This document shows, in pieces, positions 22,277 to 54,406 of a stretch of DNA of 64,000 bases. The translations under genes and the position numbers were made by a program. The notes beneath the pieces were generated by a model. That model saw only the letters and a program-made list of their open reading frames with translations. It had not been told where the DNA came from and did not search any database. Location of the stretch: the NCBI RefSeq assembly GCF_011075055.1, contig NC_058147.1, positions 7,936,001 through 8,000,000 on the forward strand, given 5' to 3'. The first letter of the stretch is position 1. Each line of letters starts with the position of its first letter. Origin of the DNA: Mangifera indica (taxonomy: Eukaryota > Streptophyta > Magnoliopsida > Sapindales > Anacardiaceae).

Positions 22277-23059
22277 ATGGCTTCTTCTAGTTCTTCTACT
22301 CCTGCAACTCCAATGTTTACAGGAGATCATTTTCACATATGGGCTGTAAAAATGAGAGTTTATTTGAGATCTCAAGGTCTATGGCATGTAGTGGAAACTG
22401 ATGAAGATCCACCTGCCTTGAGAGAAAATCCAACTCTTGCTCAGATAAAGGCACATGAAGAAGAAAAGCTGAAGAAGGACAAAGCCTTGACATGTATCCA
22501 TTCTTGTTTGGCTGATGACATCTTTACCAGCATTATGCACTTGGACTCTCCTAAAGCTGTATGGGATAAGCTAATGGAGACATTTGAAGGAGATGAAAGA
22601 GTGAAGGCAAGCAAGGTACTTACTCTTAAGAGAGAATTTGAGCTACAAAAAATGAAAGATGATGAGCTGGTGAAGGACTACTCAGCAAGGCTTATGAAGC
22701 TGGTCAACCAGATCAGATTGCATGGTGAGAATCTACCTGATCAGAAGGTGGTAGAAAAGATTATGGTTTCAGTACCTCAAAAGTTTGAAGCCAAGATCTC
22801 TGCAATTGAAGAATCTTGTGACTTGCAAAGACTCACAATTTCAGAATTAATTAGCAAGCTTTATGCACAGGAGCAAAGAGTTTCAATGAGAAATGATGCA
22901 GCTACTGAAGGTGCTTTTCAAGCATATCACAAAGGAAAGAAGTCCTTCAAGAACAACAAAGGGAAATTTGCAGGATCTTCACCTGCAGCAGAAAAAAAAA
23001 AGAATTTTCCTCCTTGCTGTCATTGCAAAAGAACCAATCATGCTGAAAAGGATTGTTGA
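22277..23059 (+). CDS. Copia Gag, ended by an in-frame TGA
   Basis: 260 codons from ATG (MASSSSSTP) to TGA. The N-terminal half is the copia Gag fold (FTGDHFHIWAVKMRVYL); a TTG further upstream in frame is not used as start here. The C-terminal end carries one CCHC zinc knuckle (CCHCKRTNHAEKDC). The TGA comes right after this knuckle, and a second knuckle (CNFCNKVGHTEKYC) follows it in the same frame. Gag coats the element RNA in virus-like particles. TGA followed by C is a comparatively leaky stop, but a simple nonsense mutation of TGG is equally possible. Confidence 0.88.
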   Translation: MASSSSSTPATPMFTGDHFHIWAVKMRVYLRSQGLWHVVETDEDPPALRENPTLAQIKAHEEEKLKKDKALTCIHSCLADDIFTSIMHLDSPKAVWDKLMETFEGDERVKASKVLTLKREFELQKMKDDELVKDYSARLMKLVNQIRLHGENLPDQKVVEKIMVSVPQKFEAKISAIEESCDLQRLTISELISKLYAQEQRVSMRNDAATEGAFQAYHKGKKSFKNNKGKFAGSSPAAEKKKNFPPCCHCKRTNHAEKDC

Positions 23060-26224: not shown

Positions 26225-26580
26225 AACTCATGAGAGTTTGCCTTGAAATTTGAAGCTGATGTTTACAAAAAGGGAAGCACATGTTTTATTTGAAAAAGTC
26301 TTAGGTAGACTTAGTATTTGATATTTGTTCAGATCAGAATCTTGCTCCTTAATTTTCTGATTTTCAGTTAGTCAAGTAATGCCAATAAAATCTGATAGTA
26401 GTTGAGATTTATTAGGATTTTAGTTTGGTTGTAAGCCTATAAATAGGCATTCTCATTTCTGAAATATATTTTAGTGTGCCTTCCTTCAATATTTTAACTC
26501 TCAATTTCCTTTGTTATTTTCTTCAAAATTCTATATTTTCAGGTTATTATAGAGAACCTGAATTTTCCAACATTACAACA
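26219..26580 (+). repeat. Copia 3' LTR
   Basis: 362 bp, followed by the target duplication GATGC. Confidence 0.97.
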
Positions 26581-28966
26581 GATGCTTCTGCTAATGATCT
26601 TTCTGGTGAAATTCCTGGTGACTTGGGGAAGCTAGGGGTTCTTGAGCAACTTCATATGTCTGATAATATGCTCACTGGCTTGATTCCGTGGCAGTTGAGT
26701 AACTGTTCGAGCTTAATGGCTCTGCAGCTAGATAAAAATCAATTATCAGGTGTTATTCCATGGCAGGTTGGTAAGTTGAAGTATTTGCAGAGCTTTTTCT
26801 TGTGGGGGAATGCAGTGTCTGGAACCATACCATCCTCTTTCGGCAACTGCACAGAGCTATATGCACTTGATCTTTCAAGGAACAAGCTTACCGGGTCAAT
26901 TCCAGAGGAGATTTTCAGCTTGAGGAAGCTGAGTAAACTTCTGCTTCTAGGGAATTCATTATCTGGACAATTGCCGCGAAGTGTTGCAAATTGTCAGTCA
27001 CTTGTGAGATTGAGGCTTGGAGAAAATCAGCTTTCAGGGCGGATTCCAAAGGAGATTGGTCAGTTGCAGAACTTGGTGTTTCTTGATTTGTACATGAATC
27101 ATTTCTCTGGTGGTCTACCCTTTGAGATTGCCAATATTACAGTTCTTGAGCTACTGGATGTGCACAATAACTACATCACTGGAGAAATTCCATCTCAGTT
27201 AGGGGAGCTTGTGAATTTGGAACAGCTTGATCTCAGTAGAAACAGCTTTACAGGGGAAATTCCTGAAAGTTTTGGAAACTTCAGTTACTTGAACAAGCTC
27301 ATTCTTAACAACAATCTTCTTACAGGGTCAATTCCAAAATCCTTTGAGAATTTGCAGAAACTTACTCTGTTAGATTTGAGCTATAATAGCTTATCCGGTC
27401 CAGTACCACCAGAAATTGGTTATGTGATAAGCTTAACTATTAGTTTGGACTTGAGCCCGAACACATTTACAGGAGAGATACCGGAGACAATGTCTAACTT
27501 GACACAGTTGCAATCACTTGATATTTCGCATAATATGCTATATGGAGGAATCAAAGTTCTGAGTTCCCTCGCTAGTCTCACTTCCTTGAATATTTCCTAC
27601 AATAACTTTTCAGGTCCTATTCCTGTAACCACATTTTTCAGAACTCTAACTTCCAATTCATATTTTCAGAATCCCAATCTTTGTGTATCCAGTGATGGAT
27701 CTACTTGTTCGTCAAGTCCCATTAAAAAAAATGGATTGAAGTCTGCCAAAACTATAACTTTGATTTCTGTGATCCTGGCTTCAGTAACCATAGCTGCTAT
27801 TGCTTCATGGATTTTAGTTACTCGAAATCACAGGTACATGGTGGAGAAATCATCAGGAGCATTGCCTTGTACTTCAGGAGCTGAAGATTTCTCCTATCCG
27901 TGGACTTTCATTCCATTCCAGAAGCTCAACTTCGCTATAGACAACATCCTGAGTTGCCTGAAAGATGAAAATGTGATTGGCAAAGGCTGTTCTGGGGTCG
28001 TCTACTGGGCTGAAATGCCCACTGGGGATTTGATTGCAGTGAAAAAGCTCTGGAAGACAAAAAGAGATGAAGAACCAGTTGACTCTTTTGCCGCTGAGAT
28101 TCAAATTCTTGGACACATAAGGCATAGAAACATTGTCAAGCTCCTTGGATATTGTTCCAATAAAAGTGTTAAGCTTCTACTTTACAATTACATTTCCAAT
28201 GGTAATCTACAACAACTGTTGCAAGGGAATAGGAACTTGGATTGGGAGACAAGGTACAAGATTGCAGTCGGTTCAGCTCAGGGTCTAGCATATCTCCACC
28301 ATGACTGTGTTCCAGCTATTCTTCACAGAGATGTCAAGTGCAATAACATACTTCTAGATTCCAAGTTTGAGGCTTAATTGGCAAAGTTGATGAACTCCCC
28401 AAATTACCATCATGCAATGTCCAGAATAGCCGGTTCTTATGGTTATATTGCCCCAGGCAAGTCCCTTGTTCGTTTCTTTTTTTTTTAGGAAATCCTTAAG
28501 AATTTTTGTTCATGTTTGCATATTGTGATTCGACTTTATTTAAATTCTGTTCCTGACATGAGATTGTGTGATCAACATTGCAGAGTATGGATACACTATG
28601 AACATTACCGAGAAGAGCGATGTGTACAGTTATGAAGTGGTTTTGCTTGAAATCTTAAGTGGTCGGAGTGCAGTTGAGTCACAGGTGGGCAATGGGCAAC
28701 ACATTGTCGAATGGGTCAAAAAGAAAATGGGGAGCTTTGAACCAGCAATATCAATTCTGGATACCAAACTCCAAGGTTTACCTGATCAAATGGTGCAAGA
28801 AATGCTTCAAACACTAGGCATTGCAATGTTCTGTGTGAATTCTTTGCCAGCAGAACGACCGACAATGAAGGAAGTGGTTGCATTGTTAATGGAGGTGAAG
28901 AGCCCTCCTGAAGAATGGGGCAAGACTTCTCAACCCCTAATGAAACAGCCCTCAAATCAAAGTTGA

Positions 28967-35545: not shown

Positions 35546-35993
35546 AGAGGCCTTTCGTGATTTCATGGCTCGCCTACTTCACTTCAAGCCACCCCCACTG
35601 AGGTCATCTCAAGCAGGGCTTGCTGAGGCATCTCTTCTCTTGTGCCCTTTTGCACCATTCATGTGTGCTACTATTTTCTTGAAAAGGATCCTGTCATACA
35701 GCTCGACAATGAAGTTATGGTACAGCATGCTACATTCCAGGATTATCCACTCAGTAACGGAGATGAAAGCATGTTTAGTTCTGAACAGCAAGGATCCCCA
35801 GTTGGCAGAAGAGCATACTCATGGGAGGGAAATGCTAGTTGCCTGATTTTTCTGGTGTCATCAAATATGACTCTGAGGGACATGTTCCTCCGGCAAAAAC
35901 TCCTGCTTACCTAGAGCTGTTGATCTACCCAAGTTCAGAGGAGAGTTATTATACATTGCACAAACGGAAAGGGATCGGTGAATTCTTGTTCTA
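35546..35993 (+). pseudogene. Possible protein-gene fragment, unidentified
   Basis: Two adjoining frames look protein-like: RDFMARLLHFKPPPLRSSQA from about 35549 and, after a frame change, SGVIKYDSEGHVPPAKTPAY continuing to ELLIYPSSEESYYTLHKRKG near 35970. The second has few stops and a biased composition. I do not recognise the family. It may be the remains of a gene or chance. Confidence 0.3.
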
Positions 35994-36470
35994 CTTCATT
36001 CAATAGTGAATAGGTGAATTAATACATAGGTTACAACAGCAAACTAGAAAAGCAGTAAGAACAAAATCAGCTTGAAGTAGTAAAGTTTAATAAACATGAT
36101 TATGTGGTGACTAAATTGGAATTTTAATCCCCAAGATTTAAGGATTTATTCCTGGTTTCCTACAAGAACCTTGCAAGGTTGAAGTGTAGTCTGATCTTCT
36201 TTGTCAAAATGAATGTAAGTTGATCTCTTGCATGCATTTGTCAGCACAAAGAACCAACATCACCCATTATTCACCCAAGTAGATCAAGCCATTCAAAAGA
36301 ACAAGGGGAAAATCCAGACACAAAATCACAATCCCACTTTGATAATTATTGTAAGATACAAAACTAAATATAATACTAAATAAAATATAAAAATTCATTC
36401 AAACAATTTAAAATTGAGGAAAAGAAAGAAAAAAAATATTGTAATGTATATCTGATCTAAAATTTTACCA

Positions 36471-39400
36471 TTAACTAGGCCTCATTAATCCTCTTTTGTC
36501 AGAATAAGAAGCTCGTCCCCTAAATCCAACAACTCTTAGTTTTGAAGCTCTGGATTTCCCTGGGCTAGACGTCCTGTTCTCTGTTTGCTTTCTCCCACTT
36601 GTTGAGGCTTTTTTGGAGCTACTTGTGGTGAAGGACTTTGACTTTGACTTCGATACCTTAAATGTTGGTTTTGAAGATTTTGCAGCTACGGATGTTTTTC
36701 CAGATTTTGTGGTTGACGATTTTCTCGTTGCAGTGTTGGTAGATGCAACCTTGGTGCGGACACTAGAGGATTTCTCTGATGCAGCTTTGGTCTTGGTCTT
36801 GACTAATTTAGCAACCTTCCCCTTCTCCTGTGTTATTTTAGCCCTGGCAATGTCCCTTCGGATATTATCAGTAGTGAGAGATTCCAAGCTCTCATTCTTC
36901 CTGATTGCCTCCTCAATACGCTCAGCCAACAGTACATCCTTTTTAGCCACCAAGCTTGTCACTTTCCCTATCAAAGTAGGAGGTATTTTAAATTGATGAG
37001 GAATTTAGACTCCATCATTTCAAAGATTAGAAATTGCCACACATCACATGAATTTCGTTTGATCAAAAAGTCTCTTCACATATGAAGCAAAGAAGATATG
37101 CAAAGCCAAGTAGTTCTAATGAGATACTAACTAATTGAAGCAACAATAGTTATGGCATAAAAATTGATTTGTTCCATTTTTTCCTTGTTAGAAATAATTT
37201 CATCTGGACATGGGAAAAACCAAGAGTTTATTAAAACTCAGGATGAAAGAGAACAAAAAAAATAAAATAAAATAAGAATATATGCAGTACAACAAAAATG
37301 TTGTCCAGCATATTTCCATTCAATACACTGTTTTCGTCAACATCCGGTAGAATAGTTGAAAAAGCTCAGATAAAACTGCAAGGACTTTGCTGAGTGAGCA
37401 TTTTGAAAAATCGTGCTAGGCACACAGAAGAAAATTGGTTAATAGTAAAGTTCCTGAATCTGGAAAAGAGAAATAAAAAAGGAGATCATATATTGACAAT
37501 AATTTCATTTATACCTTTTGCACCCATACGAGCAGTTCTCCCAGTACGATGCAGGTAGTCAACCTAAAATGCCAAAGAATAGGAGTAAATCTCTAATCAA
37601 AAGAAAAGAAAACAATAGGAGGGAAATATAGAAAAGAAAGAAAGAAAGCCTGTGGAAATTAACCAATTGACAACAGAGATGACACTTACAGAGTTCGAAG
37701 GGAAATCAAACATGATAACATGATCTACATCCAAGTCCAGCCCCCTCGCAGCCAAGTCTGTGCAGACCAATGTAGGGCAGTCTCCATCATCATTCTTGAA
37801 TTTGTTGAGATTTTCAACCCTGCGCTTACAAGAAAAACAGTTGAGCTAGTACATTGAAGAAACATTCATGTATAGATGCCAGGAGAACATTTGGCATCAT
37901 TTTTTGTCTTCTGCTCTCGAAAGTTGAAACATGTTTCTGGTCAGATGTTGGTTGTTATTTTCAGGCTCTTTAGTCATATGTATGAATGTAAGATAATTTT
38001 TGCTTTCACAAGCTAGTCCTTTTCTATAGGATGGCTTGATCACTTTGTAAGCTCTTGTTTATTAATATAACTTTCAAAATAATAATAAGAAAAATAAAAG
38101 GCATGTCAATTAATATTACTAGGTAAAATCAGCTACCTAAGGAAAGCTCAGGCCACAAAATCATTTAGCCTTCAATTATTTAATTGATCACAGCAAATCA
38201 AGTCACAGAGCATAAAACAGTAATTCTGTTGTTCTACAAATTGTTACTTTTTTGAGCAGCTAGATAGTGTTAGATCCCAAGCATATGTCTCTCACAAGAA
38301 GAAGGCCCAAAGGAATGAGACACATGGCAGCAGCAAAATTGACAACAAATGGGAACAATTAAACACACATCGCTGCTTGGACCTGGAACAAATGGCAAAC
38401 TCACAAGTGTTTGGACCACCAGAAGCAAGGGAGAGACATGGCACTGCAGGAGGAGACCTAGCTGTTATGGACAAAAAAAAGGAGGCATGCATGGGGAGAG
38501 CAGCAGAGAAATCAGAAGAACAAGTGGGGAATTGAACAAGAGATCTGAGCCCCTCAAATTGCCTGGAAAGCTTGCTGGAATTTTCATTTTGTTTGTAAAT
38601 TGGATTGTTCTTGTTTGCTGTTATATTTTGAATCATGAGATATACTGAACTCATGTAATACTGCACCCATTTTCCAGAAATGAAGTATTCATTTGAGTAA
38701 ACAAATTTGGTTACTATTTTACTGTTCCATTGAATTTGAGTTCTTGCTTGATTGAGTTGATGCTGTGTTAGCTGTTGTGATTGTGGAATTAAGGCAGAGA
38801 GGAGAGTGAAGGAAGGCATTTTGCAGTGCTGGAAATTTTACAGGAAGTTGCTGTTGCAGAACCAAACCCAGGTATCTAACAGATAGCAAATTAGATTTCA
38901 AGAGAAAACATTACAACATTTTAAGTCCAGTTCCAGTCAAATGAGAGTTTTTTAATTAGACTACACATCATTCTATGTCTTAGAAAATACTATATATAAA
39001 TGGCTAAAGTTTAGACATTATGAAAGTAAAAGATAACATCTCATATCATCTCACCTTTGTTCTGCTGGCACCTCACCATGGTAATTGACAGTCGAAATCT
39101 GATTCTCATTAAGGAAGTGATCAACAGCACGACTAGAATTTAATGTATTACAGAATACCATAACCTTGTTTCCCTTAGCCAAGCTTGGCTCAAGAACCTG
39201 CTTTCACATCACCATTTAACTCATGAAAATTATTTTGTCGGAATGCAAAAGACCTAACATAGACTTCAACTTTTCAAATTGAATGCTTGTCCCAACTAAG
39301 AGGAATTTTAGCCTCATAAACCCAAATATTTGACAAATTAAAAAACTGATCTACAACTTTTAACATTTATCAGTCAATAAAAAAGCCATGGCTATTGAGA

Positions 39401-41537
39401 ATTAAATATGAGTAATGAAGCACCACAGAAGTAGACCTGTAGCAATGCCTCCAGCTTATTTTCAGACCCTGAAAGTTTGATGAAATCATGTCGAGCAGAT
39501 GCAATTTTTTTATGCAGTGTGGACGTTCGTAAATGTGTTATTCCTTGAAACTCCTCATCAATCAGCTTCTGCACTGCCTGAAAAAAATCACAATGGCCAG
39601 TAACTAACTTGATTATAACCACAACAGTGAGGAGAGTTCATTTAATACAATTAATTAAAGGAAATTTCCAACACAACAAATTGCAGCTGCAATTATAATT
39701 AAAAGAAGAATAGTAACATTACATTATGCTTGAATTCCGCTGATAGTATACTATTCAAAATCAGCACAAGGACATTTACCAAACTAGGGTTTTTCAACAC
39801 AAGAAAATTACATCAAAAGCACTGGATTCATTTCGAACACTACATGCACCCCCCGCACACAAGTGCAAAAGGTGGTAAGAAAAACAACATATTTATCAAA
39901 GGTGCCCACTATATATAAACACACCAAGCACACTCCGCACAGCAAAGGTTTTGGGGAGAGTGTACCTTTGTCATTGTTGCGGCGACCAGTATAGTTTGAA
40001 ACCCTTGGCCATCAGGCTTTGTTGCACGATGTTTTAGTGGAGCAAGAAACTTGCGAATTTCAGGACCAAAACCACGATCAAACATGGTGTCTGCCTCATC
40101 CAACACCTACTAAATATTGTTAATACCATGAAGTGAACCAAAATTACTGCAATAGGGGCGAATAAAAAATATTTAATTCCCAAGATAGGCCACTTAAAAT
40201 AAAATTAGGTACTCACCACATATTTGATATCACCATAAACAATGTTCCCATCCTCAATATGTTGAAGAATTCTACCAGGGGTCCCAACTACCATGTCAAT
40301 TGGGTTATTCAACGAATCCTCCTGGGGCCTCAACCGACCACCACCACTGACCATTATAGATCTGAATCGTGCATGATGACTAATGGACTTTGCTACACGA
40401 AAAACCTATAAAACCCACTTGAAATATTCAATTGCATTGATCAAATTTTACAATGAATGACTTAGCTAACAATAGTAAATGAAATAAACAAAAACCTGCT
40501 CAGATAGCTCTCTGGTAGGACATAGCACAACAGCTCGCGGACGTCTGGGCTTCATTAGCCTACCCAACTCTGCCTCATCCCGTCTCAGCAACTGCAGAAT
40601 TAGAAATTACAAGGGGTTGCCTCTAGATTTTACCATAACATTCTATGACATAGCTAACATGAAAGCATATTTACAGCTTTTGGATAGAAGCGAAACAGTG
40701 AAGAAAAAGAGGAACAAATCAGCTTGAATATCCAATTATATAGATAAGTTAAACTTCGATATGCTCAAGCATACCCAATTAAGAAGACGCTCTAGATCAC
40801 TCAGGAAAAACATATTCTTATACTCTGAATATACAAAAAACTTGAGTATGTCACCTTTCAACACAAAATTTAAGTAGCCTACAAGACCAACAGCAGAAAA
40901 AATAAAACTTATCCCAAATAACACACATATGAAAAAAGGAATGAAAAATAAAAACCACCAAGTACACCTCAAAGTTTCAATTCATCTATGGCAAAATGTG
41001 GCATACCTGAACAAGAGGTAACAAATAAGCCAGGGTCTTTCCAGAGCCAGTATGTGAACCCAAGACCACACTTTTCTCATCCAAAATAGCAGGGATCCCA
41101 ATACACTGAATCTCAGTAGGAACTTCAATACCAATCTCTCTAACAGCCCCCATAACCTCCTCACTCAATCCCAACTCCTCAAAACTACCCACACTCACTA
41201 CCCTCTTCTTCTTATTATTATCAAAGTCTCCACCTTTCCCCTCTTTGTCCCCAAAACTCCCAGCTTGTTCCTGCGTTTTAGGTTGTAGGGTTGGTTTGTT
41301 TGAGTCCTTAAGATGCCTCAGCCTGAGTCTTTCAAGAAGCATAGAGTGCTTCAGCTGCTCAGGTGGGTCAATTGATATTGTTGGTGTTGTGGAAGAGCAT
41401 AGAGGCCTAAACCCTGACAAAACCCTAACGGATTTTTTGGGAAATTTAAGAAATGGGGTGAGGTTAAATTTGGTTGAGGAGAGAAGAGACATAGAAAGGA
41501 GAGTTCTTGATGTTCCTAACGCCATGGCTTTCTGCAT
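36471..41537 (-). CDS. RH39: DEAD-box RNA helicase 39, plastid type
   Basis: Nine exons join in frame to 638 residues: 41007-41537, 40496-40591, 40217-40405, 39966-40106, 39437-39577, 39055-39197, 37690-37819, 37515-37563 and 36471-36967. Arabidopsis RH39 is a chloroplast helicase needed to introduce the hidden break in 23S rRNA. Here the first ~60 residues are transit-peptide-like. Then come the Q motif ([17 protein letters not shown]), Walker [10 protein letters not shown], motif Ia [12 protein letters not shown] as VLDEADTMF, motif III AATMT, motif [14 protein letters not shown] and motif [12 protein letters not shown]. The C-terminal ~130 residues are Lys/Ser-rich and basic and end in a [10 protein letters not shown] element, as in RH39. 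Intron 6 holds a solo LTR. A truncated relative lies next to it at 44174-46085. Confidence 0.95.
38268..38881 (+). mobile_element. Solo LTR in RH39 intron 6
   Basis: The 614-bp segment starts TGTTAGAT and ends ATCTAACA, with a perfect 5-bp target duplication GATAG on both sides (38263-38267, 38882-38886). It carries no second LTR or internal domains. It is best explained as the remnant left when the two LTRs of a retrotransposon recombined. The orientation shown follows a likely poly(A) region near 38620-38700 and is tentative. Confidence 0.85.
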
Positions 41538-43126
41538 TTTTTTGCAGAAGGGTTCTGCTTTTTTTTTGTTCGGGGTTTTAGCAGTGTGCTCAAATGAAGA
41601 TGAATTATCTGCTTGCGTTTTATTTTAAATATTTGGAGTGTTTGGAACTAGGGTTAGGCCCACACTAGAATGGAACAGAAAGTATTTCATGTTCTCTTGC
41701 AATGCAAAGTCAGGAATAGGAAAGTGATGGATATTTAAGGGTGTTGTAACTACCCAGAGAATACGATATAATTGTCACGGGGGTTGTAAAACTAATAAAA
41801 CTGATAAAATAAAATCTCAATGGATGTTAAAATTGATGAAATATTAAAATTTTTAAATTAAATATTTGAGTTTAAATTTTTATCACGATTATAAAATTTT
41901 AATTTCTCTAATACAATTATTATAGATTCGGTCACTATAGGTCATTGGGTATCACTGTGTTTTAAATTTACTTGTTTAATAAATACAAATAGGGTTCTGG
42001 TTAATAAAAAAACTAAGAAAAAGAAAATTAAGATAAAAAGTTTTCAATGTGATTTGATATATTGATTGAAATATTTTTACCACTCTAACAAATACAAACG
42101 AGATCTCTAATAAAAAGTTTTTAATATGTTTTGACATAATAATCGAAATATCTATATTTATAATATAATTATTAGTTTATTAGCATCACATGCAAAATTT
42201 AATATGACTTTGTTTTGTATTGTTTGATCATATCCACTTCTCTCTTACATAATCCTACGTATTTATAAGAGCATTGAGGATCAAGGCATGACATTGCGTT
42301 AAATGTTACCTTAAAGGAATCGGATATGGTATTTGGTGCTCCAAAATATTTTCGAATTTTTCTTTCTAGGGGTTTTTTTGGGGAGCCGATAAATTCAGGG
42401 CACGAGGCAGGCTGATGAGGATTGGAGACCCTCTAGCCATTAATTTGTTGCTCTCATTGCTGCTGAGAGCAAGCAGACTTATGAGGTGGTACAAACGTTT
42501 TTGTAGTTATTCCCATCTTAGGGGTATATCTTTCGGGTGGGGGGACTCACAACTTATGTAAAGACATGATGTGCCCCATTGGATGACGTTGGGAGAGTTG
42601 TTTTCAAACCAGTATGAGTTTAGGAATAGTGTCAAGTTTTGGTTGTAAGGTGTCAGCCCTAGAGGCAAATTGATTGGATTCCATAAAACGAAGCAGTTCT
42701 ATGTTGTTTTCAAAATCTTCAAATGACTAATTGTTAGGAGATTTTTTGTGCAATCTTCTTTGACCCATCATCAGTAAGCTGTGAAGGCTTTTGAGGATGG
42801 AATGCGACATAGACTCTCTTTTTTGCGTTAAATTGTTAATGTGATTTCTGATCATTAAATGATGTATACAATTTCAAATCTTACATAAGATAAATTGTTA
42901 AAGGGTTAAAGTTTCGTTAAATTTAACTGTTTTTAGATGGGTATTTAAAATTTTCAAAATTAAAAGAAAATACTTAGGAAAACAGCAATCTTTGCGTGGG
43001 AAATAGTCCTTGGGCCTACTATCTAACTATAATTATTTGTAATAGTAAAGGTGATACCTAAAATTTGAGGATGGGTTAAACTGTACTGATAATAATATAG
43101 AGCTGAATATTGCAAACTCATAATTA
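41538..43126. other. RH39 promoter side and intergenic DNA
   Basis: AT-rich. The stretch 42360-42800 is more GC-rich and may be a decayed transposon gene, but I cannot identify it. A family A terminus relic is at about 42990-43018. Confidence 0.4.
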
Positions 43127-43691
43127 GGGAAATTAAATTTAATGTCCTAAATTCATATGCTCAAAGCAAAAATGGCTACGTTATTCATACAAAGCCAAAA
43201 AACCTGCTCACGAGGCACTGTTCACACCAGTTGCTTGGTTCACTATTCACTCACGAATTTACTCTTAAGTTTTTAACGAAAAAATGGCAAAAGAAATTAG
43301 TTATCGTTTGTTATCATATTTTATTCATTCTAGTGTTAAAATTTATGCAATGAGAAGAAGATTTAGTTGGTTTTTACGGTAGAGTTTTTAGATTTATACA
43401 ATTTATTATATAAGTTTATTTTGGAGTGTTTTGAATGAATTTGTGGAGAGATTTTATATTAAAATAGACGTAGATTTAATTATTGTTGTTTTAGACATAT
43501 TATTTTTGGCCACTTAATTTAATTTCCCAAAAGAAACATAACAGTGAATTTTGCGAGTAAATAGTAAACAGTAGAACTCGCAACACGCATAAACAGTAAT
43601 ATCTCATAAGTGGATGTTTTAGCTTTGTATAAATAATGTTGGACATTTTTACTTTAAGCATATGAATTTAAGCCATTTAACTTAATTTCCC
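43127..43691. mobile_element. Tourist-like MITE
   Basis: The left end GGGAAATTAAATTTAATG and the right end, read in reverse complement as GGGAAATTAAGTTAAATG, open inverted arms of about 140 bp. The flanking triplet TTA is duplicated (43124-43126, 43692-43694), as expected for PIF/Harbinger-type insertion. It has no coding capacity. Confidence 0.75.
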
Positions 43692-44173
43692 TTAAACATC
43701 TCCTTAATCACAGCTCCAATGTTTGGTCTCTAACAACTAAACAGCTTTAAGAATTCTCCAAGTAATTTCAAACACAACCAAACAAATAATGATGTTTAAG
43801 GCTCAACCAAATCCAGAAGAATAACTAAGTCTTCAGCAGATATTGGTGAATAATAAGAACAATATAGATTATTACTTACAATAGTCTGAATACATTTAGT
43901 CCTCTGTCACAGACTGAAAAGCAAGTAAGAAACCTGTGCATTTCACTAATGAAGTAGCCGGTTACTACATACCTAGTCAGATAGCATAGGTTTTACAGAA
44001 TCGATTAAGAAAGAAACCATTACAATAATTTATATTCAACAACTTATCAAGCCCCTATAAATTTGGATTCATGGGTACCTATAAAGAAGGGTACTTCTAG
44101 TCTGCACTCAGTTTTTTTTTTTCCCAGATAATTCGTTCATTAAAGAGATCAAAGGAAATATGCAATTTGAGAT

Positions 44174-46085
44174 TCAAGATTCTGACGCATCCAAAGTCAG
44201 AGAATTCAAAGCCTCAGCCACCTTTTTCTTTAGGGTACTCGGAGACTCAATGAGATCAAACATCTCTTCTTGCTCCATCTCAATCAACATTGCAGTCACT
44301 TTTCCGGCATTATCATGCTCAAGACGCTCCACAACAGAAGCTCCCTGTTTGCCAAGCACCAAGATAATTATAAAGTTCAGTAAGAGGACATACAATGTGA
44401 CAATATTCTGTTAACTTCGGAATCTCTTAAGCAGTCTAAAGCATCATCATTCATTTATCAACATACTACAACTCTCCTGATATGTCAGTGCATTTACATA
44501 CCTCTGAAATTGTTGAAGTGACCAAAATAGTTTGAAATCCTTGATTACTAGACTTTGATTCACGCTCTTTTAGGGGGCTCAAGATTTTGCTAATTTCAGG
44601 ACCAAACCCATGTTCGAGCAAGGTGTCTGCCTCATCCAAAACCTATCACAAGATTATTGTCATCAACAAGTATATGAGGTGTTCAATATAGGGACCCCTA
44701 AAATTTACAGAAAATTTTACACTGAAACCATCCATATTTAAAAAGGCTGAACAGAGACAAATTAACATTTTAGTATACTGACCAAATATTTGACATCATT
44801 GCATATAACACTTCCATCCTCTACATATTGTAGAACCTCGCTAGGGGTCCCAATTAGCATGCCAATGGGGGCATTTGACACATCCTCAGGGGCTTTTGAG
44901 CTGTCTCCATTTTCCATTGAAGATTTTAATCGAGAATAATGGGTGATAAACTTTGCCACACGAAAACCCTGCAGATTCCATTGAAAAATGTTTCTTTAAG
45001 GGTGATCTCATCATAGTCCATCTAAGTTGCAAATTCTCAGAAAGTACAATATGAGAGAATAGCATACAGTACCTGGTCAGCTGACTCCTCTGTGGTGCAT
45101 AACACGATGGCTCGTGGATGATTTGGCTTCATACTGAGCAATGCCTCATCCCTTCTCAGCACCTGCAGAACATTAACAAATAATGGGATTCTCCTTCCCC
45201 AAAATGGGATCAAAAGTCATCGGAACAGAAACATATTCAATTTCGTAAAACCACCCCTATATCCATGTTCTAACCAAAATCAGGACTGGTCAAAAATGCA
45301 AATCACTCTGAAAGCTAGCAAGAATGGAAAATAATATACAAGAGAACCAATTGAAACTGCATCATGATACATAGATATTCAAAATAGCATTAAAATCTCC
45401 CATGATCAATTAGAAATTCAGCAAATATGAGTAATTTTGAAAGACAAGATTGAGTTTTTGGTATAATCTCTCAAGTGAAACCTAAAACCAAACTCAAGCT
45501 TCAAGTTCAAAACTTTCACAACACCCACAAGAAAAACTTCACAAAAATGAAATCTAGAACAATTTGACACGAAAATAACCAAAGAATAAATAAATAAGGA
45601 TGATGTACCTGAACGAGAGGCAACATGTAAGCCAAAGTCCTCCCAGAACCGGAACCAGAACTCAAAACAACACTCTTTCCCTCTAAAACCGCAGGAATCC
45701 CAACACACTGAATCTCACTAGGAACAAAAACACCAAGCAGCCCCTCCACAGCTTTGATCACCTCCTCTCTCAACCCCAGTTCCTCAAAACTTGACACAAC
45801 TTCAGAGGGCGCCGCATTTGAAGACTGTGGCTGCGGGGGTTTGTTTTGCTGTTGTTGTGGTGGTGGGTTATTTTTTAGGGATCCCTTGAGCTGTCTGAGC
45901 CTGAAACTCTCAAGAACGAAAGAGTCTTTCTTGTCGCAGGGGCTTGAAGGAAGTGGGGCTTGTTCAGTTGGGCTGGTGGTGGAGGAAAGTGGTCTGAGGC
46001 TGAGGAGCGATGGTTTAGAGGGTGCCTTGGCTGAAGAAAGGACCTTTGAAAGATTGAGAATAAGCGATTTGGTTTTTGTTTTCAT
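44174..46085 (-). CDS. RH39-like RecA1 domain fused to a PABP-type MLLE domain
   Basis: Five exons (45609-46085, 45073-45162, 44783-44968, 44502-44642, 44174-44344) join in frame, all introns GT-AG and phase 0, to give 354 residues. Residues 1-95 resemble a transit peptide and linker. Residues ~97-297 follow RH39 through motif [33 protein letters not shown]. Walker A reads GSGSGRT, so the catalytic Lys is Arg; motif Ia is TTEESAD where RH39 has PTRELSE; the TPGR motif is TPSE. The second RecA domain is absent. The last exon encodes [20 protein letters not shown] and on to KKKVAEAL, matching the MLLE (PABC) domain of PABP (50486-50710 reads [20 protein letters not shown]). Inference: no helicase activity; possibly binds PAM2-type peptides. 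It could also be a young gene without function. Confidence 0.85.
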
Positions 46086-46589
46086 GCTGATTTTGATGAT
46101 GCTTCCTCTTCAGTCGAGTTCGGTTGGTTGAGAGGCCTTGTATCTCTAAAACCGATGCTCCATGTTTGATTATAAATACCTCTCTGATTGGCTAGAACAA
46201 ATAGTAAGATGGTTTAGTTTCGGTTATATTTTATTATTAAAATTAAAAAATTATTTTAAAAATATTTGATTTTTAGATAATAAAGATTATTATGGTAGTC
46301 TATATTTTATTATTTCTATTATTTTATTTTATTTATTAGTATTATAATAATTTTTTATTATAAATAATAAAATTACAGATAATAGACAAATTATCATTTT
46401 TATTTAAGAGACTATTTAATTTTTAGTTAATAAAAATTGCCTTGGTAATATATTTTTTATTACTTATATTACTTTATTTAATTTATCAGTACAGTAATTT
46501 TTTATTATCAATGGTGATGTGACAAGTAAAATAGGTAGTAATCTGATTACTAATTTCATTTTACGTATTTAATTCGTAACTTAATTTGA

Positions 46590-46842
46590 ATTATGTTAAA
46601 TAATTATTAAATAATGTCGTTTTGTCAATGAGATAAAATTCAAACTACGAATTTGAGTTATATATTCGAACCATAGATTTGAGCTAAATTCAAACCAAAC
46701 CATTTTCATTTAAACAAAACTTAAACCACCTTTAATATTGCCTCAATGAATTTGAACCGAATTAGAGCTAAATTATTTTTTATTTGAACTAAACTCAAGC
46801 CAAGAGGTCTTCAAATTCAGCTCAGTTTGTATCCACCCTTAG
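46590..46842. repeat. Decayed GAGCTC-type repeat
   Basis: Words such as TTCGAACC, TTTGAGCTAAATTC and the end TATCCACCCTTAG recall 11246-11624, with C-to-T-like decay of its GAGCTC words. Confidence 0.45.
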
Positions 46843-47425
46843 TTATAAGTTTATGGATTGAATTTGATAAACTTTATTATTGTTTCGGTGATTTAATCGT
46901 GTCTATAGTTGAGATTAAAGGAGTAGAAATGTATTTGTACGAGATTAAATTGAATTTTAGGCAAACTAGGCAACATAGAGGAATTATCAATTGAATTTCA
47001 ATTGCACAAATATGTAGGAGGCTTAATGTAATTTTACTATGCGTATAAGGGGCAAATGAAGACCATGCATAATTAGGGGGTGGTTCCTCTGGGCCAAGGA
47101 CACTAGAACATTGAACCATGAATGAAGAAAGACATGCGAGAAAAGCGTACTGACTAGTGATTAAGAGGCCCCAATTCTTAACTATTAATTCCCATTTTTC
47201 GTAATGATAATGAACTTACTACTTATAAAGTATTGAGCGATGCTTTCCATGAATGAAAGGGAGGGAAGCCTCTCCCTTTCTCATGTGGCTTCATTCTCAT
47301 CAACAATGAAGGAAAGAGTCAAATAGAATACAATGGCTAAAGTAGATTTATTTATACATAGTTTTGACTCTATCTCTTTCTTATTTAGATTTCAAATTGA
47401 ACAAAAGCGAGGAGTGGAAAATAGG

Positions 47426-47570
47426 TAACTGAGCAGCTGGGAAATCAGGAATTGGTAACAGTGAGGAACTGAGAAATCAAGAATTGCTGACAGTGAGGAA
47501 CTGGGAAATCAGCAATTGGTAACTGAGGAACTGAATTGGAGAATTGGCAACTGGACGATCGGAATTGGGT
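47426..47570 (+). repeat. Minisatellite, unit about 32 bp
   Basis: Three to four imperfect units built on GAAATCAGGAATTGGTAAC followed by AGTGAGGAACTG. Confidence 0.8.
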
Positions 47571-47587
47571 AGGGGGTTTTCTAATTC

Positions 47588-47730
47588 AATAAAACTATAT
47601 GTATAACTTTTACGTATTACTGTGTATACAACCAATGATGTGTCACCATGTAATTGGGTATTAATTTATTTTTAATTTTTAATAATCTAATCATGTGATG
47701 ATACATTGTTATTTGCACATAACAATATTC
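47588..47730. mobile_element. Family B MITE
   Basis: It has related ends (AATAAAACTATATGTATAAC) and shares the GATGTGTCACCATGTAATTGG and CTAATCATGTGATGATACA arms with other copies. Confidence 0.6.
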
Positions 47731-48078
47731 TTTTTAATCTTACCAATACATAATGAGGTTAATTGTAATAATTTTAAATTAAGAAGGGATTAAGAATTTT
47801 TCAGTTTGGTTCGATTATCAGTTTATTCAATTTTCAAAATCAGTTAACCGAATTGAACTAGTTTTAAGAAAGTTGAATATAAAATTAATAAAATATTAAA
47901 TTTTTTAAAACAATTGAAAAAAATGATAAAATATGATAATTATTTGAAATTCGGTTAAACAACTAGCTAACCAAAATTTGGTTCAATTAATTAATATTTT
48001 CGATTCGATTTAAAATCGGTTTAGTTTCAATTTATAATTTTTTTGAAACCAAAAATTTAGTTTAATTTAAAAAAGAGC

Positions 48079-48244
48079 AATACTATGTGTACCCACTTTG
48101 GGTACATAAATGTATACACACTCATATGTGTCATCATATGATTGGTTATTGTTTTATTCTTAATTCAAAATCATCTAATCACATGATGACACATATAAAT
48201 GTGTATACATTTGTGTACCCAAAATAAGTACACATAGTTTTATT
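48079..48244. mobile_element. Best-preserved family B MITE
   Basis: It is a near-perfect palindrome of about 166 bp. The left arm ATACTATGTGTACCCACTTT and the right arm reversed AAACTATGTGTACTTATTTT are followed by matching GTGTCATCAT(A/G)TGATT blocks. Target duplication is unclear. Confidence 0.75.
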
Positions 48245-48514
48245 GATTTAAAAAATTGGTAAATTGGTTCAATTGACGGAGTTTGAACATCTTTACTATT
48301 TCCTATTCTCTAAAGTTTTCTTTAGAACAAATGAAAACTATGAATTAGGATAAATCTAAAGCAAACATAAAACGGACCCATTAAACCCAAAATAAAAATT
48401 TTTAAAAACATTTGGCGCCAAAATTCAAAATTTCCATTTTAAAGGTCTCGGCCAAACAAAATTCAAAACCCTAAATCTAAATACAGAAATCAAATAAAAA
48501 TCTAAACTGAAAAA

Positions 48515-50097
48515 ATGCCAAACACCATCTACATTGCTCTCCAATGTTGTCAGTGCTCAATGATGCAGGCAAAAATATCCGTTTCTCTTTATCTCTATCT
48601 TTGTGTAACTTCATCATATTTTTTTGTGTATATAGAGTTTATTTGCATTTATTTGTGTTTTGAGTTCAATTGCCAGGTGAAGCAGAAGAAGAAGAGCAGC
48701 AACAAGTGGACGTGCGTGGTTTGCAACCAGAAGCAGTCAGTACGGAAGGTGTTTGCGCAGGGATTCATGGCCAAGGATCTTCGCGCTTTCGTCCAGTCCT
48801 TCAACATCTCGCGTTCGGGAGAAACAGAACAAGGTGTTATTCGTCCTTTTTATTCTTAAAAATTTTTTTCCCTCTATTTTTTTGTCCAGAAAGAAACCTA
48901 CGAGTATAAACCGAAGACTCAAACTGGGAAACAAGCCTCTTATCAAATGCTTAATTTTGATGGATGTAGGTGGTGTGGGGGATGGACTCGAGGCAGAGAT
49001 TGAAGTAGAGATGACAAATAAGAAACTCAAGTTGAATGAGTATCAGACTATTACTGATGGAAAATGTTACGGAGTAGCAGAAGGAGACGATGAACTTCCC
49101 AAAACATTTTTTGACTCTCTGGGTCATGGTCAAGGTAATTGGAAATTTCCTTGTTTAGGTGCTTGGTAGACCGTTTTGACCAAGTAAGTGAATTATTTAC
49201 TACACCTATAAATTATAAAGTTGTAATTGTTTGGACAAGGGCTAGGCTAGAGTTGAACTGAATTAGATCAAGTTTGATTGCCAACTTGATTGATTGATAT
49301 ATTTCAATAACAAATGTTAGTTAAGTTTGGGTTTATTTTATTATATTGAGTTTGAACTTGAGTTAAATTTTGTAATAACTCATTGAACTCGAACATATAT
49401 TGGAGTTTGATTTCTTAGAATTGAGCTAAATTTGAGCAAACCAAAACTCGAACTTTGACTCAATTTGAATTATTCTTAACTATTTTCATTGAACTTATTT
49501 TTATAATATTGTGACTTCTGTCAATTTGAAGTTGGAGATGAGGAGGCTAGAGCTAGTTCTACCACAAAGCGGAACAGTCCCTTGGCTCAAGATGACAAGG
49601 AGGCGACAACCATGGCTGCATCAAAGTGGAGCAATTATATGACTCAAAACGACAAGGAGCCAAGGCCAAAAAAGACCAATGTTGTCTCAAAATGGAGCAG
49701 TTACATGACTCAAGATGATACAGAGCGGACGTCAAGCCAGGCGACAATGGGCACGTCTGCCTCAAAATGGAGGGATTACATAAATCAAGATGACAAGAAG
49801 CCGCCAAGGACAGAAGAGCAAACAAAGACCAAGGCTGCATCGACAAGGGTTAACCGGTCAACTTCGAATTGGTGTGAATACATGACAGGTGATGAGGACC
49901 AGAGGCCCCATTTGCCAACAAGAGTGGGGAAGGCTGCTTCGAAATGGGACAATTACTTAACCCATGAGGAAGATGGCTTAGAACGAGTGAGTGGTAGAAA
50001 GACTGTGGATCACATAAGTGATTGGAGCAATGGTGTTTTTGAGACCACAACAAATGATCAGAAGGTAGAAGATGACATCCACCCTGATTTCATTTGA
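48515..50097 (+). CDS. MRNIP-like protein (UPF0544/C5orf45 family)
   Basis: Human MRNIP interacts with the MRE11-RAD50-NBS1 DNA-repair complex; the plant relatives are little studied. Exons 48515-48568, 48677-48833, 48970-49134 and 49532-50097 give 313 residues in frame. The conserved N-terminus has two CxxC pairs (CCQC, CVVC), then KWTCVVCNQKQSVRKVFAQG, as expected for a zinc ribbon. The exon 4 product repeats a motif SKWxxYMTxDD five times (SKWSNYMTQND, SKWSSYMTQDD, SKWRDYINQDD, SNWCEYMTGDE, SKWDNYLTHEE), which human MRNIP has once or few times. Intron 1 must use a GC donor (CAG at 48566-48568 then GCAAAA) to give the family sequence. Exon 3 starts at 48970 because only this acceptor keeps frame. 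A GAGCTC-type repeat fills intron 3. Confidence 0.85.
49237..49480. repeat. GAGCTC-type repeat in MRNIP intron 3
   Basis: It opens AAGGGCTAGGCTAGAGTTG and has AACTCGAAC-type words throughout, like 11246-11624. Confidence 0.55.
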
Positions 50098-50485
50098 GGC
50101 TTTCCGATACTATAAACCTTCCACTTTTACATTAGACTGTTTATGCAACCGTGCAATATGTGCTCAGATGCATCAATTACTAAAGAGTCAGGCAAATGCT
50201 TGGAAAATCTTTAATTACTATGTCATTCAAATGAAAACATAATGTAAAAATAAATAGAAAAACACATCAATAGTAATCCTAAAACTTAGATACCTTTGGT
50301 ATACCCCACACTGAATCAAAAGCCTAAAAGAATTTCAACAAGTTACCGACTAAAAAAAATAATAATAAAACTAGGAAATTAGTCTAGGAGAAAACCCCAT
50401 AAACAATGATAGTACATCCACCCTTCAAAAATGAGCTAGAAACCAGGGACCAGTAAATGTATTTACCCAGAAGAACGAGGGCACT

Positions 50486-53400
50486 TCATTCATTCAGTGC
50501 CAATGAACCAAGCTTATCGTTAATGTCAGATCTTGCAGCAGCTTCCTGAAGTACAGCCATTGCCTCAGCCACCTTTGTTTTCAGAGCTTCAGGAGACTCA
50601 ATAAGATGGAGCACTTCTGTTTGGTCCATCTCCAGCAACATTCCAGTCACCTTTGATGCATGAACAGGCTCAACACTCTCCACAAGGGGATAAAGCTGTT
50701 CACCAAGCATCTGAATATGGAACACGATAAGTAACCCGGTCGAACTTTCACATTCAAATGACACCCAAACCTTGATCAACTTATTTAAAAGAAAGAGAAG
50801 AAAATATTGCATACCCTCATGCGGTTGGTTGGGCTCGCAGACGCCAAAGCAGATGTAAGTGTTGAAATTGGTACTGACCCAGGTCGCGGGGTTTCTAATG
50901 GAGTCATAGGCATTCCGGAAGCATCAAAGGACATAGGCATCATTGAAAAAACAGATGGGTTGATTCCATTTCTTTCATTGTTCAGGTATCCAAGTCCCTA
51001 TAAGAGTAATCCAAAAGTTGAAAATGAGAAGTCAGATATAATATCAGAGATGAACAAATAATTAACATTACTCAATAGATTACCTGAACACCAGCTTAGA
51101 CTTGTAATCGCCTAATATTAATCATAGAAGTTTTCAACAAATATCATAACACTTCTAACACAGCAACAGTTTATGCTAACCAAAGCAGCGCACCATTATC
51201 ATCAAAATAAATCAGCCAAATAGCACTGACAAGTTTTAATCTAAAACAGAAACTGCTTTTGTAGGAAGTCAAATATTATATATATATATATAAAATAAAA
51301 TAAGAGGAGAAAATAATAGGCAAATCTCCTAACATATAATTTGTTAAACTGTCATAATATGTCAACTAAGCAAGCTTCCAGCCAATTAAAGAAAAACCAT
51401 TTTCACTCCTAGCCTACTAAAGTCTAAACATGAAAAGATTAAGAAAGTTTTGCATATCAAGGATCCTTGAACAAGTCTTGCATTTGAAAAAAAAAAAAAC
51501 CCTCATGTTTGTAAGTTTGATAAAATAGCCATACACAAGACAGGATTACTAGTTGGACCACTTGAATGACACAGGGAAAGGAACAATTTGAGAAAGTTTT
51601 TTATTGCACCTGTGACTGCTGCATTTGTTGGGGGTTTCCACTTCGTCTCATGCCCCCCATTCGCTGCCCTGGCTGTCCTTGCCTTGGAAGATGATATGGC
51701 ATTATATAATTTGGTCCACCAGGACGCATTCCAGCATAAATTTGTTGCTGAAAACTGTATCCTGCAGGCTGGGGCATTAAACCAGGAGTACCCTGACCAT
51801 AGTATAGCGGCTGAGGACCAAGCCTAGGTGCCCCAGGATGATAACCAGGAATTCCTGAAGGCAGAGGTGACACTGCACCCGGTGCTTGGATTTGAGCAAA
51901 ATGTGCCTAAAAAGGAAAACCATGATAATATATGCTTCCACAGCAAGGCATTAATAAAAAATCTACTTCAAGAATGACTATATCCATAATAAAGAGTCTC
52001 CAATATGACCAAAAACATGCAACCAGAAAATCACCTGCATCCAAGCCTTTCTTTCATCTTTGCGTTGGGCCACAGCCACATAGAGAGGTTTCCGCCCAAT
52101 CATCTTCCCATGCATCTCATTCAACTAAAACCAAAAAAAAAAAAAAAAAAAAAGAGAGAGAGAGAGAGAGAAATTTTATACATAAAGAAAGAAAGGCAAA
52201 GGCAAAAGCATGGTCGGCATAAGATTTGAAAATGAACAGTAAGAAACTTACAGCTCTTGTGGCTTCCTCAGGTGAAGAAAAGGCAACAAAACCAGAGCCT
52301 TTGCTCTTCCCATTCAAATCAAGCAGGACCTGGAACAGTTATATTTAAGGGGGAAAAAACAATACTAAATATGAACCAGTATAAAAAGCAAAGTAATAAG
52401 AACAGTCAAAAGAGTTACTAAAAAGCTAGAAAGTTATACAAAACAATACCTTGCACGACCTTATAGTTCCATATTCAGAAAATAATTCCTTAAGTTTTTC
52501 ATCGTTTATGCTGTCATCCAGATTTTTCAGATATAAATTAGCAGCTCTCAATTTTTCGTATCTACTGATTCTTTCCTGTTCAAATTTAGCTTTCAACTCT
52601 GCCTCCCTCTCAGATCTCTTTTGAGCTCTGCCCACATACCAAACCTTGTCACCATCAGCAGTCCCATTCAACTTCTCCACTGCAGCAGCAGCGGAATCTG
52701 CAGTCTGGAAATTTACAAAACCAAAACATCTAGACTTTCCGTTTGAGTCCTTCATAACTAGTGCACTAGTGATGGTACCATAATGGCCAAAAACTTTCTT
52801 AAGGTCCTCATCAGTTGTCATTTCAGACAAATTGTTAACATAAACATTAGTGAACTTAGGTGGAACACTTTTCTGTTCCCTCTCTTGGCGTCGAACAAAA
52901 AGACCAACATAAACTTTTTTATCATTTAACAACATGCCATTCAACAGTTGAATCGCATTTTTCGCAGCTTCCTCATTTTCATACTGCACAAATCCATATC
53001 CCTTTGACTGACCAGTGCTGTCGACAGCGACTTTGCAAGAAAGTACATTCCCAAAGGCAGCAAAAGTGTCTTGCAATGCCTTGTTATCAATGGATACATC
53101 CAGGTTCTTAATGAAAATATTGGCATATCCACTTTTGCGGATGCTGGGATCTCGATGAGAATACATAATCCTTATAGGTTTCCCATTGATAGGAGTGAAG
53201 TTCAGAGTATCCTTGGCATTGGCAGCTGCAAATTAAAATTCATAGACAGGGTCAATACAGCACTTAAGAAAGAATAAGAAAACATAACAGAGAAAAGAAT
53301 TACTCAAACTCCTATGGTTAATTAATCTGGCTGTAAATACAGCATATGCAGAGCAAACATGATCCCAACTTTCCAATTAATCAATCACTAGCTACATCAT

Positions 53401-54406
53401 GTGTGCTCAACTTATCTGTCTGTATATGAAACATAAAATCCTAAACATAATAAGATTACATAAAACCTAATGTAAATCACAACCACCAATTTCCACCAAA
53501 ATTAAAGTAAACCAGCATAAAAATACTTTTTAATTTCTAGTAGAATGTTAACCTTAATGGTAAAAAAAGTCCTACTAAAGTACTGGTAAGCATACAAACT
53601 TAGCCTAATTGAACTGATAAAAAAAAAAAAAGAATAAAGAAGTCACTAGCAGTAATCTGTCGCATGACTTAAAATCCTTCCTATTAACCCCAATAATAAA
53701 CTCAGTAGTCAGCGCACCAATAAATATATTATGATTGACACCCTTATATTGTTTAGCTACTGTATCTCAACATTCCATAATGCATAAAATATATTTAGAT
53801 TAGATTTCAATTTCATAACTTTAATTTGATAATCAACACTAATTATAAATTAGCAATCTACTCATTAAAAAATTAAAAATTAAAAATCCCATACAATGAC
53901 GCTAACCCCACCCAGTAAACAATACATATTTATACAGATAGAATCACCACACATTGATAAGATAACACATAATAATAATAATAATAGATGATTCTCCAAT
54001 TTAAAAAAAAAAAAAACCTAACTAACTTTTCACTTTATCCAACAACCACCAACATTGATCACACAAAATAAGTTCTCATAAGACAAACAGATTCAAAGAG
54101 ATCAAATCACATCATCAGCAAACGTAAAACACGCTTCTTTCTTAACTGAATTGAATCACATCAATTAAAATTGATATTACCGTCTTGTGGATTGGCGTAA
54201 TTGACATAAGCGTAACCGAGAGAAGTTCTCTTGTTTTGATCTCGACAAACCTTAACAGAAACCAACTGAGGCACCTGGTTAAACAGATCATACAGTTGGC
54301 CCTCGTTCACATTCTCCTCCAGATCCCCTACGTACAGCGACACATTCCCGAACGCCGGTGCCGTCACCGCTGTCGTCCCTGCTGCCGTAACTCCCGCTGT
54401 CGCCAT
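50486..54406 (-). CDS. Cytoplasmic poly(A)-binding protein, class II type
   Basis: PABP binds mRNA poly(A) tails through four RRMs and recruits translation and decay factors through its C-terminal MLLE domain. Seven exons (54181-54406, 52450-53225, 52252-52329, 52035-52124, 51610-51906, 50815-50997, 50486-50710) give 624 residues. RRM1 has [10 protein letters not shown] and GYAYVNY; RRM2 IFIKNLD and GYGFVQY; RRM3 VYVNNLSE and FGFVNF; RRM4 LYLKNLDDS and GSGFVAF. A Pro/Gly/Gln-rich linker follows, then the MLLE domain with [11 protein letters not shown]. The start is the ATG at 54406; the GTG at 54421 is only an in-frame open codon. The long first intron (955 bp) within RRM1 is common in plant PABP genes. 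Its stop lies 388 bp from that of the convergent MRNIP-like gene. Confidence 0.96.

Follow-up and report, generated by a model that had tools for sequence, protein, structure and literature searches.

A chimeric RH39-PABP gene in mango belongs to an apparently undescribed family of predicted pseudohelicases in core eudicots

Introduction

In DEAD-box proteins, RNA is bound by motifs Ia and Ib, whereas motif III links ATP to unwinding, according to the available part of one source (PMC12940211), and RH39 acts in the plastid on hidden-break formation in the 23S rRNA, as stated in the accessible text of another (PMC11731035). A DEAD-box descendant may be kept after losing its motifs, as in the case of Utp25/Def, for which a possible role as a helicase cofactor in ribosome assembly has been proposed (PMC9539457, portion at hand). 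MLLE domains, in turn, are found outside the poly(A)-binding proteins (PABPs) in UBR5, a ubiquitin ligase, and in the fungal protein Rrm4; in the latter, two of the three MLLE domains have altered sites and take no part in PAM2-type binding, one of them being still accessory (PMC9249222, partial text).

Here we describe a gene of Mangifera indica that combines parts of RH39 and of a PABP. It has in common with RH39 the borders of exons 1-4, the Q-motif, the DEAD motif and a transit-like N-terminus, but it lacks the second RecA lobe, its motifs I, Ia, Ib and III are changed in nearly all family members examined, and it ends in an MLLE domain. Compared with a plant PABP of the type represented by P0183, it has no RRMs, helix 1 of the MLLE is missing, contact positions are changed and the tail is shorter. 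Utp25/Def, in contrast, has both RecA-like domains and belongs to the SSU processome, with no MLLE noted in the part of PMC9539457 available, and the partner domains of UBR5 and Rrm4 are unrelated to those of the fusion, as far as the partial text of PMC9249222 goes.

An earlier note on this DNA, made from its letters alone, knew of no described protein joining a DEAD-box domain to an MLLE. Likewise, no helicase-MLLE fusion appeared among the open-access papers listed in searches on the fusion, its parts and plant MLLE/PABC proteins, and it goes unmentioned in the available portions of two plant studies, one on the PABP family (PMC4252990) and one on MLLE partners (PMC4574140). A cDNA-AFLP table contains a Citrus 'helicase 39-like' fragment, which may or may not correspond to the fusion. 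The family is apparently undescribed. The statement of the same note that plant MLLE domains are known only from PABPs needs more care, as Pfam holds an AtC3H46 PABC domain family (PF23182), which gives a weak match here.

Results

The window, that is, the whole stretch of 64,000 nucleotides analysed (C11:7936001-8000000), carries a PABP gene, the fusion and an RH39 gene in this order on the minus strand, all within 18 kb (Table 1). The fusion gene consists of five phase-0 exons spanning 46085-44174 and encodes 354 amino acids in the joined frame; all exon borders are GT/AG and every length, with the stop included in exon 5, is divisible by three, in agreement with the earlier claim that the five exons join without loss of frame. 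Exons 1-4 measure 477, 90, 186 and 141 nt in the fusion and 531, 96, 189 and 141 nt in RH39, and all end in phase 0, so that the exon-by-exon correspondence with RH39 that had been proposed, including an exon 4 of identical length, holds. Homology likewise connects exon 5 to the last exon of the PABP gene, as had been claimed, and the position given there for this gene, 50486, is indeed its end. A Pfam scan matched PF00270 (DEAD) at residues 124-298 with 97.1 bits and PF00658 (MLLE) at residues 302-346 with 49.2 bits (E 5.3e-13; cut-off 27 bits), and exon 5 alone reached 53.2 bits (E 3e-14), which places the last exon far past chance in the profile comparison that the earlier note had proposed. 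The same scan detected no PF00271 or helicase C-terminal domain in the window fusion.

Table 1. Coordinates in the window of the fusion exons, the neighbouring genes and the segment missing from the recent duplicate
Feature	Position	Strand	Description and basis
Fusion exon 1	45609..46085	-	477 nt; encodes a transit-like N-terminus, the Q-motif and a degenerate motif I (GSGSGRT); borders, RH39 exon 1 homology, motifs
Fusion exon 2	45073..45162	-	90 nt; degenerate motif Ia, TTEES replaces PTREL
Fusion exon 3	44783..44968	-	186 nt; degenerate motif Ib, TPSE replaces TPGR
Fusion exon 4	44502..44642	-	141 nt, equal to RH39 exon 4; DEAD retained, motif III changed
Fusion exon 5	44174..44344	-	171 nt with stop; partial MLLE, derived from PABP last exon; acceptor predicted; PF00658 49.2 bits and PABP exon homology
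RH39, full length	36471..41537	-	9 exons, 638 aa; parent gene, lying downstream of the fusion; tblastn
PABP, full length	50486..54406	-	7 exons, 624 aa; lies upstream of the fusion; represents the class that probably donated exon 5
PABP last exon (MLLE)	50486..50710	-	phase 0, starts MLGEQ; counterpart of fusion exon 5
Segment absent from recent duplicate	41279..47865		contains the entire fusion and the RH39 5' end; blastn

The start of exon 5 was less straightforward. In many orthologues it reads MLGxQ or VLGxQ, and in the window the bases preceding the codon at this position are TG, not AG; the nearest downstream in-frame AG lies 15 nt further on (44344), and there are additional in-frame AGs elsewhere, for example at 44407. 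Since the acceptor was taken 15 nt downstream, five residues are missing from our model. The ancestral exon-5 acceptor seems to have been lost or shifted in this genome, as judged from the proteins of relatives rather than from their DNA, and the start of exon 5 is therefore a prediction.

A search of the whole genome (391-Mb assembly) retrieved one full-length copy of the fusion. A recent duplicate of the RH39-PABP region lies just upstream of the window (C11:7922001-7933595) and matches window positions 35737-54067, with DNA identities of 97.6% and 96.0% over two long blocks and 95.1% beyond them; a 6.6-kb deletion has left it without the fusion and without the RH39 5' end (Table 1), and about 48075-48242 of the window is absent as well. 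In an older copy (C19:5429001-5447000) the PABP gene is retained, the fusion is reduced to an exon-1 remnant carrying an internal and a terminal stop, and of RH39 exons 7-9 remain. The window gene could be decaying in this species, the family being real elsewhere, a reading that would fit the apparent loss of the ancestral acceptor, the recent duplicate (about 95-98% identity) without a fusion and the interrupted remnant on C19. We consider it distinctly unlikely, given that all five exons together form an open frame, that an in-frame AG is present and that the best match among those listed, from Pistacia vera, shows 83% identity over its full length.

Other features were observed in the window. 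Between PABP and the fusion, open frames on the plus strand (48681-50097) end near the PABP 3' end and contain repeated SKW..YM..DD units; they gave no Pfam match, and we take them to resemble MRNIP-like proteins. A gene on the plus strand at 21364-28966, presumably a receptor-kinase-like LRR gene, appears to have been split by a Ty1-copia-type element, whose open frame of 1054 aa (23060-26224) matches RVT_2, rve and gag_pre-integrs. Two multicopper-oxidase-like gene pieces, which we assume to be laccase-like, lie in opposite orientation at 5400-6879 (+) and 11699-12295 (-), and PF07731 was tested for and detected at 6394-6879 only. Two stretches of 250 bp (2122-2371 and 2459-2708) are 98% identical.

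The earlier note had also proposed looking for orthologues with the same layout, and at least 83 proteins carrying both PF00270 and PF00658 were present among the 180 distinct matches listed from two homology searches, these 83 being clusters in which isoforms and several entries per genus are counted. The search with the window protein contributed the best 120 of 582 matches, 51 of them with both domains, and a profile search contributed the best 120 of 943, adding 60 new proteins, of which 32 carry both domains. When 27 hand-picked fusions already labelled with both domains were rescanned, all 27 matched both at E values up to 0.01, and PF00271 was absent from the families that they matched. 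PF00658 scores were 58.6 bits in Liquidambar, 32.3 in Glycine and 28.6 in Nepenthes (cut-off 27). In 4 of the 27 there was a weak match to the CMS1 family (PF14617; best E 0.0025), presumably a helicase-like protein of pre-ribosomes; this kinship was rejected, as the scores, where bits were shown, were 15.8 and 16.8 against a cut-off of 35.

According to the taxon names in the tables, the hosts are rosids together with Liquidambar (Saxifragales) and Nepenthes (Caryophyllales). We take the rosid hosts to represent Sapindales, Malvales, Brassicales (Carica, Tarenaya), Malpighiales, Celastrales, Fabales, Rosales, Cucurbitales, Fagales and Myrtales; placement was looked up for Liquidambar, Nepenthes, Pistacia and Tripterygium. 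No asterid, monocot or Vitis fusion was present among the matches listed (best 120 per search). A third search, for regions similar to Liquidambar exons 4-5, returned 230 candidates with two fusions and was too narrow to inform on asterids. Many of the source entries bear the name 'DEAD-box ATP-dependent RNA helicase 39(-like)', for instance in Citrus, Gossypium and Theobroma.

Five nameless 'lgn' proteins (P0045, P0131, P0133, P0136 and P0145) come from contigs of 1,241-1,354 nt with an uninterrupted frame of 267-306 aa across the exon 4/5 junction. These contigs are probably assembled spliced mRNAs and, because of their resemblance to Glycine and its kin, probably of legume origin. They bear on the possibility that the fusion is an artefact, in which annotation pipelines, and visual inspection too, ran two adjacent genes together. 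In some models neighbouring genes do seem to have been merged, as suggested by PF00156 in those of Acer yangbiense and Dipteronia dyeriana, but the same junction recurs in most of the 83 clusters listed, two of which show a broken exon 5, and in the five short cDNA-like contigs, and in the window the distance from exon 5 is 157 nt to exon 4 but 6 kb to PABP, which makes an artefact extremely improbable. That the family is real is, in our judgement, nearly certain. The occurrence of the same chimera across many flowering plants indicates an old, retained gene family and not a local accident, and the window gene is one member of this old chimeric family of core eudicots, composed of RH39 exons 1-4 and a PABP last exon. 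The picture of a local copy drawn in the earlier note has to change accordingly: with orthologues in many eudicot orders, the gene is ancient, and the destruction of its helicase motifs is a consistent trait.

A tree of the shared lobe (201 columns) was built from 39 fusions, namely the window protein and 38 of the 83, the other 45 being left out by hand choice (isoforms, fragments, close relatives), and from 41 RH39 rows, including 40 relatives picked by hand from the lists. The fusions formed one clade (support 95/93), with Liquidambar branching first and the remaining 38 supported at 100/100; these values are rough because the bootstrap had not settled. A single origin of the fusions is thus very probable. 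The Liquidambar protein is little changed, retaining the MLLE signature glycine and reading PTKEL at motif Ia. The placement of Nepenthes is unsure owing to its long branch, and Nepenthes and Liquidambar are represented by one sequence each. If the Nepenthes gene is genuine, the fusion dates to Pentapetalae; otherwise, it is at least as old as the split between Saxifragales and rosids.

The fusions evolve about 5.9 times faster than RH39 from the same species (median p-distance 0.48 vs 0.12; 45 pairs, 10 species). Differences at codon positions 1, 2 and 3 numbered 55, 38 and 74 between fusion and RH39 (193 codons) and 14, 9 and 14 between exon 5 and the PABP exon (44 codons), both patterns being too mixed to separate the constraint of the lineages. 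The tree also contained P0244 from Stephania japonica, a very divergent single-lobe RH39 copy of 393 aa (branch 1.14) whose locus tag is two away from that of a full RH39, P0209; it is perhaps an independent half-helicase without an MLLE.

The helicase half showed the same substitutions in nearly all fusions. At motif I, the Walker-A Lys was Arg in 34 of the 39 fusions (the window reads GRT), Lys in 2 and another residue in 3; the two rows with Lys, P0012 (Carica papaya) and P0127 (Lupinus angustifolius), may reflect either retention or reversal. The Arg of motif Ia was lost in all 39, being Glu in 27 and Lys in Liquidambar, and that of motif Ib was also lost in all 39, being Glu in 38 and Ile in 1. 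The middle Ala of motif III was lost in 38/39 (Ser in 37). At motif II, where the window has an intact DEAD, the first and last Asp were each kept in 38/39, Glu in 29/39 and Ala in 24/39, and the Gln of the Q-motif was kept in 35/39. The RH39 rows kept each of the residues named for motifs I, Ia, Ib and III, the first and last Asp of motif II and the Q-motif Gln in 40/41, the exception being the odd second Stephania copy. Of the features expected of a DEAD-box helicase, motif II is present in the fusion; two RecA domains and intact motifs I, Ia, Ib and III are not. Judged by its motifs, the fusion is very likely catalytically dead, and unwinding by the fusion alone is ruled out by the missing second lobe, according to the established DEAD-box mechanism. 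Identical replacements across orders suggest a new constrained surface rather than decay. The intact frames in many orders and the conserved replacement residues may reflect retention of the family by selection. Taken together, helicase descent in the tree and the lost catalytic motifs identify the fusion, at the level of sequence, as a pseudohelicase.

In the MLLE half, the match of the window protein spans positions 21-65 of the 66 in the profile and that of Liquidambar positions 10-64. By comparison with PABP, the N-terminal part of the MLLE (helix 1 and the start of helix 2) is absent from the window fusion; exon 5 begins within helix 2, at the residue corresponding to human Met561, and the MLLE helices directly follow motif III without a linker. 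The HYD MLLE chain 1i2t (61 residues) aligns from its residue 5 and the UBR5 chain 3ntw (65 residues) from its residue 10; as both start near the beginning of exon 5, an MLLE can fold with little before that point.

The PAM2 contact positions were taken from the available part of PMC2854688 and compared in 72 exon-5 rows, after dropping 11 of the 83 fusions (isoforms, same-genus near copies and two with a broken exon 5). Glu587 was kept in 71 of the 72 rows, Lys606 in 66, Leu586 in 64, Glu609 in 62, Ala610 in 61, Leu614 in 59, Gly563 in 57, Met584 in 50 and Lys580 in 32. Position 579 was Gly in all 72 fusions, a residue present among nine PABPs in P0183 only. Phe567 was changed to Ser in 53/72 and Val613 to Ser in 66/72, and the glycine of KITGMLLE was Ala in 68/72. 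From these residues the groove is read as partly kept and consistently altered. The changes at PAM2-binding positions leave PAM2 binding by the fusion unproven, and from its residues the MLLE could equally well bind a peptide or bind none; by analogy, Rrm4 may serve as a fair precedent for either outcome.

In a different reading, the MLLE exon would be a structural cap that closes the RecA lobe, and the protein would act through this lobe as a dominant-negative or decoy of RH39 with no peptide binding. A cap would suit the family-wide changes at several PAM2-contact positions, the similar evolutionary rates of exon 5 and the lobe (median p-distances of 0.42 and 0.44, 136 pairs) and the direct junction of the MLLE with motif III; the near-invariant Glu587 and the frequently retained Lys606 are not obviously needed by a mere cap, and we regard this reading as somewhat unlikely.

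As to the origin of the chimera, one tandem duplication with its ends in the last intron of PABP and in intron 4 of RH39 would leave both genes whole and place between them a chimera in which RH39 exons 1-4 are spliced to a second PABP last exon. Both joined borders, that of the PABP last exon and that of RH39 exon 4, are phase 0. The earlier note had proposed that a tandem RH39 copy lost its second RecA domain and gained an MLLE exon; the tandem, RH39-derived half-helicase with a PABP-derived exon stands, but two separate events are unneeded, since a single duplication gives exactly the observed order and strand. Among the 12 species with both genes among the matches listed, the locus tags of fusion and RH39 were consecutive or separated by one tag in 6 (Pistacia integerrima, Reevesia, Diplodiscus, Hibiscus sabdariffa, Lupinus angustifolius and Jatropha), 3 and 14 apart in Flemingia and Canavalia, and far apart in 4 (Citrus x aurantiifolia, Bauhinia, Melastoma and Liquidambar).

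The closest of nine PABP last exons was that of P0183 in 71 of the 72 fusions, a comparison biased by the fact that P0183 was the sole PABP from outside this genome and had come up through its similarity to the Liquidambar fusion. When P0183 was compared with 11 PABP-like loci in this genome, which were of unequal length, it best matched the window PABP (summed bits of 311, 301 and 254 for this class and 199 for the next). Exon 5 derives most probably from the last exon of a PABP of the neighbour's class, similar to P0183.

The MLLE exon could instead have come from a different PABP by insertion (exon capture), with the neighbouring PABP being coincidental or a later arrival. The window exon 5 is in fact closer to PABP exons elsewhere in the genome, with 62% identity to the C16 PABP copy vs 54% to the neighbouring one, and no DNA similarity above background (best E 0.03) was left at the supposed breakpoints when the region downstream of the fusion was compared with that downstream of PABP, and fusion intron 4 with RH39 intron 4 and the PABP last intron; moreover, P0183, which points to the neighbour's class, was itself found through a fusion. 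Nevertheless, this member of the neighbour's class is the nearest PABP exon in nearly all fusions, and order, strand and phases fit a single duplication. We consider exon capture unlikely and the tandem duplication the probable route.

The composition of the N-terminus was compared in 37 of the 39 fusions, two having been set aside for their long N-terminal extensions, and in 39 of the 41 RH39 rows. Residues 1-40 of these 37 fusions contained 1.8% acidic and 28.8% Ser/Thr residues, residues 120-300 contained 13.6% acidic residues, and the first 40 residues of the 39 RH39 rows contained 0.4% acidic and 25.7% Ser/Thr. This acid-poor, RH39-like N-terminus, together with the plastid role of RH39, favours an organelle as the location of the fusion, which we hold to be likely from its predicted sequence. 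Alternatively, the transit-like N-terminus might not import and the protein might function in the cytosol, where its MLLE and the PABPs would compete for the same PAM2 proteins. In plants such proteins, the CIDs, have been described as partners of PABPs (PMC4574140, available part) and part of the groove is kept, but the groove is also altered and the N-terminus of the family is nearly free of acidic residues, as in RH39, so that we find a cytosolic function improbable.

Discussion

The explanation that we prefer on balance, with moderate confidence, is that the gene is an RH39-PABP chimera encoding an organelle-targeted pseudohelicase scaffold with a modified MLLE groove. The single RecA lobe would serve as a protein-binding scaffold descended from the RH39 surface, and the MLLE helices would replace RecA1's own segment after motif III, close off this lobe and present a modified groove for peptides. 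Most likely the protein would assist or restrain, without catalysis of its own, the RH39 pathway through which plastid 23S rRNA matures, a role in this pathway that we put forward tentatively. A more specific and speculative proposal, which we think is unlikely to be right in full, is that the imported pseudohelicase uses its reshaped groove to recognize PAM2-like peptides on nuclear-encoded plastid ribosome-assembly factors and thereby tunes RH39-dependent 23S rRNA maturation. If true, the fusion would stand beside UBR5 and Rrm4 as another kind of non-PABP MLLE protein, the third so far and the first working inside an organelle, in which a cytosolic PABP module has been re-used.

The locus looks like a case of a new protein arising from one local rearrangement that joined two unrelated genes at matching introns. 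The chimera appears to have been kept over much of eudicot history, with a conserved loss of catalysis and a reversed charge in an RNA-binding motif, and with it the few published non-PABP MLLE proteins, UBR5 and Rrm4 in the available text of PMC9249222, would gain a plant class. It follows that some plant proteins annotated as 'DEAD-box ATP-dependent RNA helicase 39(-like)' are not helicases, and the family raises the question of whether a module of the poly(A)-binding proteins works in plastids.
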